Source of the DNA: a virus
Direction: 5' to 3' (one strand)
Virus record (IMG/VR): IMGVR_UViG_3300002144_000062
Location: 1-32,843 of that record
DNA length: 32,843 bases
Part shown: positions 5,233 through 32,800 of the stretch, one piece after another
How the letters are laid out: each line of letters opens with the position of its first letter
Numbering within the stretch: the first letter of the stretch is position 1
Notes under the pieces: generated by a model
The model's database searches: none
Told to the model about the DNA's origin: nothing
What the model saw: the letters and a program-made list of their open reading frames with translations, nothing else
Program-made: the position numbers and the translations under genes

Positions 5233-5596
5233 CAATGGGGAGTGGACTGAAGCTAGGTTTCGAGCGTTTATAATCTCTGCCCTTCGTGCCTACATGAAGC
5301 GCTTCCCACCTAAGTGGAAGGCTTTAAAAGCAGCATCGATAGGCAGGGCTATTAACAGAAGGTCGGGACGATTGGCTGAGCATTACGAGTGTGCTGGTTG
5401 CAAGGATACCTTTGTTGCGAGGGATGTACAGGTAGATCATATTGAACCTGTTGTCTCTCCGCAAGATGGTTTTCAAGACTGGTGGACATATATGAATAGG
5501 CTCTACTGTGAAGCTGAGAACTTGCAGGTGTTGTGTAAACCATGCCACAAGGGTAAGACAGCAGAAGAGCGTAAAGAAAGGGTTAAGAACAAATGA
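5213..5596 (+). CDS. HNH endonuclease
   Basis: This 127-residue protein has a complete HNH fold signature: zinc cysteines C60 and C63 (YECAGCKD), the catalytic VDHIEP (H76), an asparagine in ENLQVLC, and C108/C111 with H112 (CKPCHKGKT). I chose ATG 5213, the first ATG in frame, which overlaps the zincin gene by 20 bases; the ribosome site is weak. It is embedded in the operon with an ATGA overlap to ThyX rather than standing alone as a homing gene. It could be a free-standing nuclease acting in DNA processing or host DNA breakdown. Confidence 0.88.
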   Translation: MSLREYNNGEWTEARFRAFIISALRAYMKRFPPKWKALKAASIGRAINRRSGRLAEHYECAGCKDTFVARDVQVDHIEPVVSPQDGFQDWWTYMNRLYCEAENLQVLCKPCHKGKTAEERKERVKNK

Positions 5597-6222
5597 ATGT
5601 GAAACTGGTGTGGGTTACCCCCGATGCAGAGGAAAAGGTAGCGTACATGGCTCGTGTGTCAAATCCGGGTAATCAGGATAACAAGGAGACAGCGCCTAAG
5701 CTGCTACGTTACCTGATGAAGAACAAGCATTGGAGTCCATTTGAGATGGTTAACATCTGTATGGAGATTGAATGCACACGAGACATTGGAAGGCAGATTC
5801 TACGACATAGGTCGTTCAGCTTTCAAGAGTTTAGTCAGAGGTATGCGGAGGCTTTAGACATGACCTCAAGCGAGGTTAGGTTACAAGATACAAAGAACCG
5901 ACAGAACTCCTTACCTACTGAAGATAGGGAGCTACAGCGGTGGTGGGATGAGATGCAACTTAGCCTCATAGCGCAAGCTAGAGGGGTCTACGGCGCTGCT
6001 CTGAACAACGGGATAGCCAAGGAGGTAGCTCGTAAGATTTTACCAGAGGGGCTGACAGGGAGTCGTATGTATATGAATGGGACGCTACGCAGTTGGATGC
6101 ATTATGTTGACATCCGGTGTGATGAAGCAACCCAGAAGGAACATAGAGACATTGCAGATAAATGCAAAGCAATTTTAACTACACACTTTCCTAGTCTATA
6201 TGGAGAAACAAATGGAAAATAA
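5593..6222 (+). CDS. thyX: Flavin-dependent thymidylate synthase ThyX
   Basis: ThyX makes dTMP from dUMP with methylene-tetrahydrofolate, FAD and NADPH. The protein is 209 residues, the usual size, and holds the exact ThyX signature RHRx7S (R71-H72-R73 to S81, within RHRSFSFQEFSQRY). The C-terminal RKILPEGLTGSRMYMNGTLR stretch fits the substrate-binding part (spanning residues about 146-165). It begins with an ATGA overlap to the HNH gene and its 3' end overlaps the next gene. With the ribonucleotide reductase nearby it would secure thymidine for phage DNA. Confidence 0.95.
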   Translation: MNVKLVWVTPDAEEKVAYMARVSNPGNQDNKETAPKLLRYLMKNKHWSPFEMVNICMEIECTRDIGRQILRHRSFSFQEFSQRYAEALDMTSSEVRLQDTKNRQNSLPTEDRELQRWWDEMQLSLIAQARGVYGAALNNGIAKEVARKILPEGLTGSRMYMNGTLRSWMHYVDIRCDEATQKEHRDIADKCKAILTTHFPSLYGETNGK

Positions 6223-6415
6223 ACAGTACTACCACTTTAAGAAAGAGCAGACAGAAGCTAACGTGTCGTCCAAGTCAGAGCATCTATACATATGTGAAGA
6301 AGATGCACAATGGGACGATGTTATGCGACAGTTTGCTGCCTTCCTAGACTCCTGTGGTTATATAGGTGTGTATGAAAGGGTTGATAACATGCTTGATAAT
6401 ATGCGGGAGGAATAA
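6212..6415 (+). CDS. Small hypothetical phage protein
   Basis: Two in-frame ATGs exist, at 6200 and 6212; I chose 6212 because GGAGA sits five bases upstream. The 67-residue acidic protein contains HLYICEEDAQWDDVMRQF and FLDSCGYIGVYERVD. Short phage proteins ending in a similar FLxxCG segment are common next to ThyX or phosphoesterase genes, but I know of no function. The stop overlaps the ATG of the metallophosphoesterase (TAATG). Confidence 0.7.
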   Translation: MENKQYYHFKKEQTEANVSSKSEHLYICEEDAQWDDVMRQFAAFLDSCGYIGVYERVDNMLDNMREE

Positions 6416-23403: not shown

Positions 23404-24417
23404 TTAAACGATAACCCAGCGACTACCGCTTGGAACTGTAACTGAAACACCACTAGCCACCGTAATTGGCCCAGCACTCATTGCGTTGTTGTTTGTGCCA
23501 ATAGTGTAATCTACACTGATAGTGTTAGCCATCTCATACAGCCCTTTGGTGGTGCTGTTGGCATCTGTGTCCAAAACTCCCCACGTAGCCGCAGAGCCAT
23601 CTGTAGTTAAATACTTACCAGAGTTACTTGTCTGGTCAGGTAAAGCATCTACAGCCGCCCAACTTGTTGCCGTACCGTTAGTGGTTAAAAACTCACCTGA
23701 GTGGCCTGTTTGATCTGGTGTGTAGGTGGCGGCTAGAGTGGCTGAGTCAGCCGCAGCGGTGGCGCTGTTTGCGCTATTAGTGGCACTTGTAGCGGCTGCT
23801 GTAGCGCTGTTGGCGCTATTCGTGGCCTGTGTGGTTGCAAGGGCAACCTGTGCTGCTCCATTGGTAGTTGCAAGGCTTGCTTGTGTAGTAGCTGTCGTAG
23901 CACTATCAGAAGCTGCTGTGGCGCTGTTGGCGGCATTGGTAGCCTGTGTAGTCGCCGTAGACGCACTAGAAGCAGCGTTAGAGGCGCTAGTAGAGGCTGC
24001 TGAGGCAGAGGTAGCCGCATTGGTTTCAGCAGCTTCTGCGGCTGTCTGAGCCGTCTGAGCATCGGTAGCACTTGAGGCTGCTGCTGTGGCGCTATTGGCA
24101 CTGTTAGTTTCACTTGTAGACGCGCTTGAGGCAGAAGCAGTTGCACTACTCGCTTGAGTCGAGGCGGTAGAAGCGCTTGAGGCGGCGGCAGTGGCACTGT
24201 TGGCACTGTTGGTAGCACTTGTAGCAGCGGCTGAGGCACTGGCAGTTGTTGTTGAAACATGACCAGAGGCAGTTGAGGCTGAGGCAGCAGCAGCAGTCGC
24301 ACTAACCCCTGCCGCATCAGCAGCATTTGTTGCACTAATCGTAAGGGCTGTTACAGCCGATATAGAAGCATCATTGGTAGCATCACCACTACCACCAGAG
24401 CCACGGTAAATAGCCAT
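23404..24417 (-). CDS. Alanine/serine-rich repetitive tail fibre
   Basis: I chose ATG 24417 because AAGGAGATTTT precedes it, giving 337 residues that begin MAIYRGSGGSGDATNDAS. Residues about 25-235 are repeats of the type SATNSANSATAAA, rich in A, S, T and N, as in lambda-type side-tail fibre shafts. Two tandem copies of a DQT...SG[EK][FY]LTT[ND]G...W unit follow, then a domain ending PSGSRWVIV. It is the first fibre gene after the capsid. The low-complexity DNA makes several long false frames. Confidence 0.88.
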   Translation of the reverse strand: MAIYRGSGGSGDATNDASISAVTALTISATNAADAAGVSATAAAASASTASGHVSTTTASASAAATSATNSANSATAAASSASTASTQASSATASASSASTSETNSANSATAAASSATDAQTAQTAAEAAETNAATSASAASTSASNAASSASTATTQATNAANSATAASDSATTATTQASLATTNGAAQVALATTQATNSANSATAAATSATNSANSATAAADSATLAATYTPDQTGHSGEFLTTNGTATSWAAVDALPDQTSNSGKYLTTDGSAATWGVLDTDANSTTKGLYEMANTISVDYTIGTNNNAMSAGPITVASGVSVTVPSGSRWVIV

Positions 24418-31865: not shown

Positions 31866-32264
31866 TCATATATCCTCTGCGTCTGAAATATCGTCAATAA
31901 TAGTGGTTTCGCCACCAATGCCGTTGATGGTAATGTTAACAGAAGGACGAGTGTTGCCCATCTTATCTTTATCGAAGTAGGACATCGGAAGCATCCTATC
32001 AACCAATAGTTTCCACGCCGCTGCTTGGTTTTTATGTTCATCATCTAAGGCGGCATCCAAAATAGCATCTAACACCTTGCGGCTCTTAGGGCTGTTCATC
32101 AGCCTAGCCTTGAACTCCTCAATCGCGTTAGCATCCCCTTTAGGTCTTCCTACGGGCTGCTTACGGGCTTCAACTAGTGATGCCTTTGAGGGTCTTCCTC
32201 GCTTCTTTGTTTGAGGGGTTAAGCCCACTTGAGGGTTCACTTCGCTCTCTTGAGGGTTTTCCAT
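31866..32264 (-). CDS. terS: Terminase small subunit with AT-hook-like motifs
   Basis: This 132-residue protein is the first gene of the late arm. Two GRP motifs (KRGRPSK at 21-27 and VGRPKGD at 38-44) look like AT-hooks; a helical body (FKARLMNSPKSRKVLDAILD; AAWKLLVDRMLP) and an acidic tail follow. The position upstream of lysis genes and TerL and the DNA-binding motifs suggest the small terminase subunit. AAGGAACCAG precedes the ATG. Its first 80 bases belong to a dense array of CTTGAG motifs. The family call is moderate. Confidence 0.7.
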   Translation of the reverse strand: MENPQESEVNPQVGLTPQTKKRGRPSKASLVEARKQPVGRPKGDANAIEEFKARLMNSPKSRKVLDAILDAALDDEHKNQAAAWKLLVDRMLPMSYFDKDKMGNTRPSVNITINGIGGETTIIDDISDAEDI

Positions 32265-32286
32265 AACTGGTTCCTTACTATATAGA

Positions 32287-32335
32287 CCACTTGAGCTTCT
32301 TACCTATATAGGGCTATATAGTTAAGCTCAAGTGG
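32287..32335. repeat. 12-bp inverted repeat in the TerS leader
   Basis: CCACTTGAGCTT (32287-32298) and AAGCTCAAGTGG (32324-32335) are perfect inverted copies 25 bases apart. The space between holds two CTATATAG palindromes ten bases apart, and the flanks carry further CTATATA[GA] copies. In RNA it would make a stem in the 5' leader of TerS; in DNA it may be a pair of binding sites. Confidence 0.95.
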
Positions 32336-32413
32336 TTTATATAACTATATAAACTATGAACCTCAAGTGGACTAAGTTCAAACCCTCTTAACGTCATACC
32401 CTATATAGTACAC

Positions 32414-32442
32414 AGTATACCACACTTTTCTCTTTTTGTCAA
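32414..32442 (-). promoter_or_regulatory. Late sigma-70 promoter P1 (before TerS)
   Basis: On the - strand: perfect TTGACA (32442-32437), a 17-bp spacer ending AAAAGTGTGG, and TATACT (32419-32414), with an extended -10 TGG. A start near 32,407 would fall within the CTATATAG palindrome at 32401-32408. The TerS leader would be about 143 bases. Confidence 0.92.
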
Positions 32443-32691
32443 GTCTTTTCTTCACTATTTTAACATTTATTTTTAGACACGCTTGAGGGGCTTTATAGCT
32501 GATCTGTCGAAACCGCTTGAGGGTTATCTTGCTGTTCTGTCGCAACCGAAGCCCTTGACCTCGACAGACGACTCTTCCTTTTAATCTGTCCCTAGTTTAT
32601 TCTTTGTTTCTTGGTTATTCCCTTTAGAATCAGTTGCTTAGGTGTTATAGTCTATATAGTAGTAGTTCTCATTTAAAAGCTATATTACCCC

Positions 32692-32734
32692 TATTTTGTA
32701 TCTAGCTTTTCACATTAGCCTTATTTTGTATCTA
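32692..32734. repeat. Two 13-bp direct repeats, 30 bases apart
   Basis: TATTTTGTATCTA occurs exactly at 32692-32704 and 32722-32734. The 30-base period is close to three helical turns. They lie in the part of the control region that faces the right window edge. Confidence 0.9.
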
Positions 32735-32800
32735 CGTGGGTACGGTATACTTCCGTGCACTTAATACCCCTCCCCCGCCCATGGTTATTAGGGGCATTGG

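Follow-up and report, generated by a model that had tools for sequence, protein, structure and literature searches.

Upstream of the presumed small terminase gene (terS) of an uncultured podovirus, two short motifs, the palindrome CTATATAG and the hexamer CTTGAG, crowd around a strong promoter and run on into the coding sequence. What does this array do? An earlier note, made from the sequence alone, had proposed an operator cluster, a composite packaging recognition region, or both. The IMG/VR record that carries the array is identical with the stretch of DNA analysed here (the window, 32843 bases, classed as linear). Its late genes, which comprise phage structural and lysis genes, the large terminase, the portal, the major head protein and tail fibres, lie on the minus strand and run leftwards from terS, while the early genes, coding for a Pol I-type DNA polymerase, an exonuclease, a thymidylate synthase, a ribonucleotide reductase and PhoH, lie on the plus strand and run from the opposite end of the record. 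Relatives in which both ends are joined show that the region to the right of terS is the divergent early/late intergenic region. The nearest isolate match of the DNA polymerase is the enzyme of Pelagibacter phage HTVC104P (50% identity), and the head protein is about 35% identical to those of cyanophage podoviruses. The name terS rests on position, size and AT-hooks (Pfam AT_hook match, 4e-4), the product having no PHROG match. It has 274 relatives in the viral contigs collection and no match among 50,697 phage records, and no isolate is close. Our preferred reading, held with moderate confidence and built on sequence comparison, is that the array would be the control region of a late, terS-first operon in an uncultured podovirus lineage, combining a start-site operator with a structured leader.

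Table 1. Features of the terS upstream region (window coordinates).
Feature	Coordinates	Strand	Remark
terS-like gene, 132 aa, two AT-hook (GRP) motifs	31866..32264	-	late operon gene 1
CTTGAG sites D1 (32249) and D2 (32228), within terS start	32228..32254	+	
CTATATAG, 3' outer arm of hairpin 2	32278..32285		directly before Shine-Dalgarno AAGGA 32272-32276
Leader hairpin 2, ends just before Shine-Dalgarno	32279..32343	-	predicted; fold and compensatory changes
CTTGAG site C (transcript CTCAAG), hairpin 2 inner stem 3' arm	32290..32295	+	
CTATATAG, apical hairpin arm	32304..32311		motif count and fold
CTATATAG, apical hairpin arm	32314..32321		motif count and fold
CTTGAG site B, hairpin 2 inner stem 5' arm	32327..32332	-	count, fold and covariation
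Leader hairpin 1, from predicted transcript 5' end	32344..32409	-	predicted; CUAUAUAGGGUAUGAC pairs with GUUCAUAGUUUAUAUAG
CTTGAG site A, hairpin 1 upper arm	32362..32367	-	motif count and fold
CTATATAG (S1), 5' arm of hairpin 1	32401..32408	-	on predicted P1 start site
Late promoter P1, TTGACA-17-TATACT, TG before -10	32414..32442	-	kept in relatives
Two imperfect repeats with CTTGAGG (sites U2, U1) and TCTGTCG-AACC, upstream of P1	32473..32548	+	
Weak promoter-like TTTAGA-17-TATAGT, faces early genes, abuts S0	32623..32651	+	not established
CTATATAG (S0), upstream of P1	32652..32659		directly after weak promoter-like site facing early genes

As the earlier note had stated, CTATATAG occurs five times within 382 bases (32278-32659). 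These are its only copies in the record, compared to 0.55 expected for the whole window, and none of 100 shuffles reached five. The seven CTTGAG copies (Table 1; those upstream of P1 begin at 32482 and 32516) and the two TTTGAG copies (32185 and 32210) are present as well. The accompanying claim that such a number would not be expected by chance holds for the CTTGAG cluster, with 7 copies per 339 bases compared to 0.53 expected from the rest of the genome (Poisson P = 1.5e-6), but not for the word itself, which is common genome-wide (58 copies compared to 21.7 expected; 1.6 per kb outside the array). CTTGAG is thus ruled out as a rare word and is unusual only in its local density. No other part of the genome is as dense in either motif, the densest other 339-base stretch having four CTTGAG. 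The densest cluster outside the array has four CTTGAG in about 110 bases of a tail-fibre gene (24071-24181). We also recovered the inverted repeat with CTTGAG arms that encloses two palindromes (arms 32279-32298 and 32324-32343, 95% complementary), and the array does extend into terS. The two repeats upstream of P1 have 28-nt cores (32488-32515 and 32521-32548) spaced by 33, with their CTTGAG copies spaced by 34; the GCGACWGAACAGC part of these repeats is kept in relatives.

P1 is a near-consensus sigma-70 promoter (11 of 12 matches) with an extended -10, and a copy of CTATATAG does lie on its predicted start, 5 nt after the -10. A TTGACA-17-TATAMT promoter is kept in all lineages, and P1 with CTATATAG at +1 precedes terS in relatives with 40-100% TerS identity. 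In most lineages, down to about 40% TerS identity, the palindrome begins 3-7 nt after the -10; in the other lineages the promoter is kept and the start region differs (e.g. CACTAAAGAGA). Within the family, CTATATAG occupies fixed places before terS, at about -21, -47/-57, -145 and -340 to -395, the last of these (S0-type) being found in most members, and it is absent from the genes flanking the array in the window's family. Whole records of relatives contain 3-7 copies, mostly before terS. Another single copy is found among the early genes, 3-5 kb in, and coincides with the end of a small zinc-finger-like gene that precedes the helicase-primase gene; since this copy also encodes a conserved NYID peptide, it proves little alone. 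The conservation that the earlier note expected among relatives with the same gene order was found for CTATATAG but not for CTTGAG, which is conserved in a single clade. The weak promoter-like site that abuts S0 cannot be counted as established, because two such sites were found compared to 1.2 expected in shuffles.

The viral collection was scanned for a promoter followed by CTATATAG within 3-20 nt, and matching stretches were assigned to the superfamily if they shared at least two proteins with it. The scan returned 119 stretches, 80 of them readable, and 49 of these 80 belonged to the superfamily, compared to 10 of 80 in the same scan for a control palindrome of equal composition, GTATATAC. 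Matches at places other than terS precede recurring genes, namely the helicase-primase block, an 80-aa gene after the portal gene and a structural gene whose product is recognisable by the peptide MTYLQL. Most superfamily matches of GTATATAC fall on the latter two late promoters, as if the outer base of the palindrome had been exchanged there. An excess of short spacers (3-5 nt) was not used as evidence because the control also shows some, and superfamily membership was used instead. From these comparisons, we read CTATATAG as a regulon-like start-site element that would mark middle and late promoters of the superfamily. In L113, L126 and L153, a single start-site CTATATAG is followed by a leader of about 30 nt that leaves no room for hairpins, so that the palindrome must also work without them. 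Literature searches on CTATATAG and on AT-hook TerS proteins returned nothing relevant.

The terS leader, about 145 nt from the predicted +1 to the start codon, is predicted to fold into two tandem hairpins with a free energy of -53.1 kcal/mol, compared to a mean of -32.3 in 200 dinucleotide shuffles (z = -5.63; 0/200 as stable). The 5' end of the predicted transcript, whose start was placed from the position of the -10, is paired. Hairpin 2 consists of an outer UAUAUA stem, a 13-bp CTTGAG/CTCAAG stem and an apical CUAUAUAG-CC-CUAUAUAG hairpin; in a longer fold, site D2 can pair with site A. Four of the five CTATATAG and three of the seven CTTGAG copies are stem arms in the leader. The operator reading had thus overlooked that most motif copies are also arms of RNA hairpins that carry compensatory changes. 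Most of the family has the lower stem of hairpin 1, which shows a G-C to A-U exchange between the window (UAUGAC/GUUCAUA) and L012 (UAUAAC/GUUUAUA). In hairpin 2, the inner stem has been rewritten with compensatory changes as CTTGAG, CTAGAG or CTTATG, and 8 of its 13 pairs changed on both sides among seven distinct members. Covariation of this stem reached 0.418, compared to 0.194 ± 0.043 when shuffled and at most 0.107 in slid controls. The arms were anchored on the hexamer by hand, two misaligned members out of nine were left out and the seven used are related, so that the covariation, although strong, does not count as independent evidence. In L038 the stem reaches 22 bp and includes five G-U pairs, and over all leaders the ratio of G-U to A-C mismatches (34:17 compared to 609:455 in shuffles) leans weakly to RNA.

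Leader folds are comparably strong in L006, L007, L008, L038 and L254 (z from -5.5 to -8.4), followed by L029 (z = -4.0), and many other relatives have z values of -1 to -3. The leaders of L043 (0.6), L181 (0.0) and L261 (0.7) fold no better than shuffles, indicating that only some members of the family have a strongly structured leader. Rfam returned no covariance-model match above the gathering score for the leader. The leaders of L312, L314 and L315 contain 15 copies of CTTTAA/TTAAAG, the one in L312 being predicted to fold with extreme stability (-86.6 kcal/mol, z = -10.2). In a lineage that lacks CTATATAG (L069, L080, L083, L295 and their relatives), a terS leader hairpin with CGCAAGAGA/UCUCUUGCG arms occupies the same place as that of the window with another word.

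The leader does not explain the CTTGAG copies upstream of P1 and in the start of the coding sequence. The over-represented hexamer of the array is private to each lineage: CTTGAG around the window, CTAGAG in L030 and L038, CTTATG in L254, CTGATC/CAGATC in L029, CTTAAG in L061 and CTTTAA in L312. Before terS, L038, L220 and L029 each have their own word four to five times and lack the other three words, and L254 has CTTATG five times in its array. The changed copies include those upstream of P1, outside the leader. At the start of terS, the copy has changed to the lineage's own word in L038 but is still CTTGAG in L254. The small gene that precedes the helicase-primase gene has one or two further CTTGAG at its start in the CTTGAG clade, near CTATATAG. 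Because the private word changes together, also at sites outside the leader, this concerted change suggests a co-evolving DNA-binding factor with drifting specificity. In group G012 (L085 and L086), CTTGAG is absent from a 37.8-kb relative in which about 12 copies are expected from shorter words, as if it were avoided through restriction. The early region of L090 codes for a DNA methyltransferase (5545-6252; PHROG 757, E = 5e-70).

Pfam and PHROGs recognised no transcription regulator among about 20 early proteins, and a comparison of gene content between 23 genomes with and 12 without CTATATAG at P1 yielded no DNA-binding candidate. A host regulator was rejected, since a promoter followed by CTATATAG was matched at 103 scattered places in bacterial genomes, with Firmicutes and unrelated groups contributing many of them, and no host clade emerged. 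TerS is itself unlikely to read CTTGAG: L029 and L038 have different array words although 116 of 127 aligned positions (91%) are identical between their TerS proteins, and both AT-hooks are shared by lineages that have the motifs and lineages that lack them. These observations also leave the packaging half of the earlier proposal unsupported, and we regard a cosB/pac-like recognition region for TerS as very unlikely. Such a region would fit the location of the array directly upstream of and inside terS, reminiscent of the repeated sites just upstream of terS in lambda cosB and other terS-proximal packaging sites, as well as the two AT-hooks of TerS and the contig ends of relatives that cluster about 500-590 bp upstream of the gene. 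However, the sequence of the sites does not follow the DNA-binding part of TerS, the words changing while TerS hardly does, and CTATATAG also sits on promoters far from terS. An origin of replication, with the repeats acting as iterons for a phage or host initiator, is highly improbable. The region is AT-rich and intergenic with tandem repeats, and L043 has seven or eight intergenic DnaA-box-like TTATCCACA repeats at about -560 to -640 from terS, yet the array copies stand at set distances from the terS promoter and start codon and recur before other late genes.

The operator half of the proposal is supported in part, by the start-site conservation of CTATATAG, its presence at other promoters and the concerted change of the CTTGAG-type words. 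As in phage repressor operator arrays, including mycobacteriophage stoperators, several copies of a short palindrome lie over a promoter start, are conserved in relatives and recur at other promoters of the same phages, and some sites are lineage-specific; unlike in those arrays, no repressor gene is recognised among the early proteins checked, CTATATAG is confined to promoter regions and the copies form RNA stems. It is possible, though doubtful, that the array is purely a cluster of DNA operators on the late and the divergent early promoter, bound by two regulators of which one reads the fixed CTATATAG and the other the drifting CTTGAG word, with the hairpins as a by-product of inverted sites. 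This would account for the single CTATATAG on the start sites of other promoters without room for hairpins, for S0 outside the leader, for CTTGAG-type sites that change in concert on both sides of the promoter and for CTTGAG beside CTATATAG at the small gene before the helicase-primase gene in the same genomes. It does not account for inner-stem pairing that exceeds the words and is compensated pair by pair, up to 22 bp with G-U pairs, nor for a hairpin 1 that begins at the predicted +1, and the early proteins searched include nothing repressor-like. The two hairpins could instead load onto host RNA polymerase so that terminators are ignored along the late operon, with the start-site TATATA as a -10-like sigma pause, in the manner of HK022-type put RNAs, which antiterminate through the zinc-binding domain of the RNA polymerase beta-prime subunit; we consider this improbable. 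HK022 putL is about 70 nt long and has two stem-loops just after its promoter and a -10-like element (PMC9378689). The predicted leader fold likewise has a pair of stem-loops immediately after a phage sigma-70 promoter and a -10-like element close to the start, the operon is long and no phage RNA polymerase was seen among the proteins checked. In contrast to put RNA, it is about twice as long, follows a late rather than an early promoter and contains no recognisable put sequence, and single-site promoters have no hairpins. HK022 putL may be the nearest functional analogue of the leader, though we do not file the leader as put because length and sequence differ and Rfam gives no match.

Under the preferred reading of a start-site operator coupled to a structured leader, P1 would drive transcription toward terS, and the palindrome on its start would serve a phage or host factor as the operator through which this otherwise strong promoter is timed. 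Further promoters of the superfamily, both middle and late, would be timed by the same putative factor. Once folded, the leader may act on the nascent mRNA of the roughly 20-kb late operon, either by stabilising its 5' end or by helping transcription to stay processive. 5'-terminal stem-loops of the ompA type stabilise bacterial mRNA, and the predicted terS transcript similarly starts inside a stem and has its hairpins before the ribosome-binding site; it differs in having two long hairpins made of repeated words and a start-site palindrome common to other promoters. The CTTGAG word would double as a stem arm and as the binding site of a fast-evolving putative factor, since the sites outside the leader follow the word in its changes. 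The promoter, the start-site palindrome, the predicted hairpins, the compensatory changes and the concerted words of this scheme come from the sequence, and we infer the remainder.

What is new here is the two-hairpin leader together with the concerted, lineage-private change of its word. The combination of a fixed palindrome with a lineage-swapped word suggests a late-gene control device that has not been described. A bolder version seems unlikely: an undescribed class of late-operon leaders of uncultured podoviruses, in which a single, rapidly evolving phage factor would recognise the palindrome and the private-word hairpins as DNA and also as RNA stem, giving lineage-specific late-gene immunity or timing on the same promoter. 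The timing of late genes in lytic podoviruses without their own RNA polymerase is mostly obscure outside a few model phages, and here one promoter architecture can be traced across dozens of uncultured genomes with one element fixed and one swapped per lineage. Should a co-evolving factor lie behind the swapped word, these lineages would show a regulator changing its specificity while keeping its promoter. As P1 resembles an ordinary sigma-70 promoter, the structured leader is directly testable in a laboratory strain.

Among relatives, contig ends are clustered at 495-586 bp upstream of terS (11 of about 36). One and the same homologous base (GCTTCATTGCCCC) is the last of the window (right end, 32843), L018, L022 and L030, and the early-side contig L585 starts about 45 bp beyond it; this shared end may represent a genome terminus bearing a short terminal repeat, or else a break in the assembly. 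Two nearby blocks, at 32684-32734 and 32770-32785 of the window, are kept in all relatives. Between 32684 and 32785, the blocks comprise one to three copies of GATACAAAATA-RGG-TAAATT and a G-rich box, GGGCGGGGGAGGGG.
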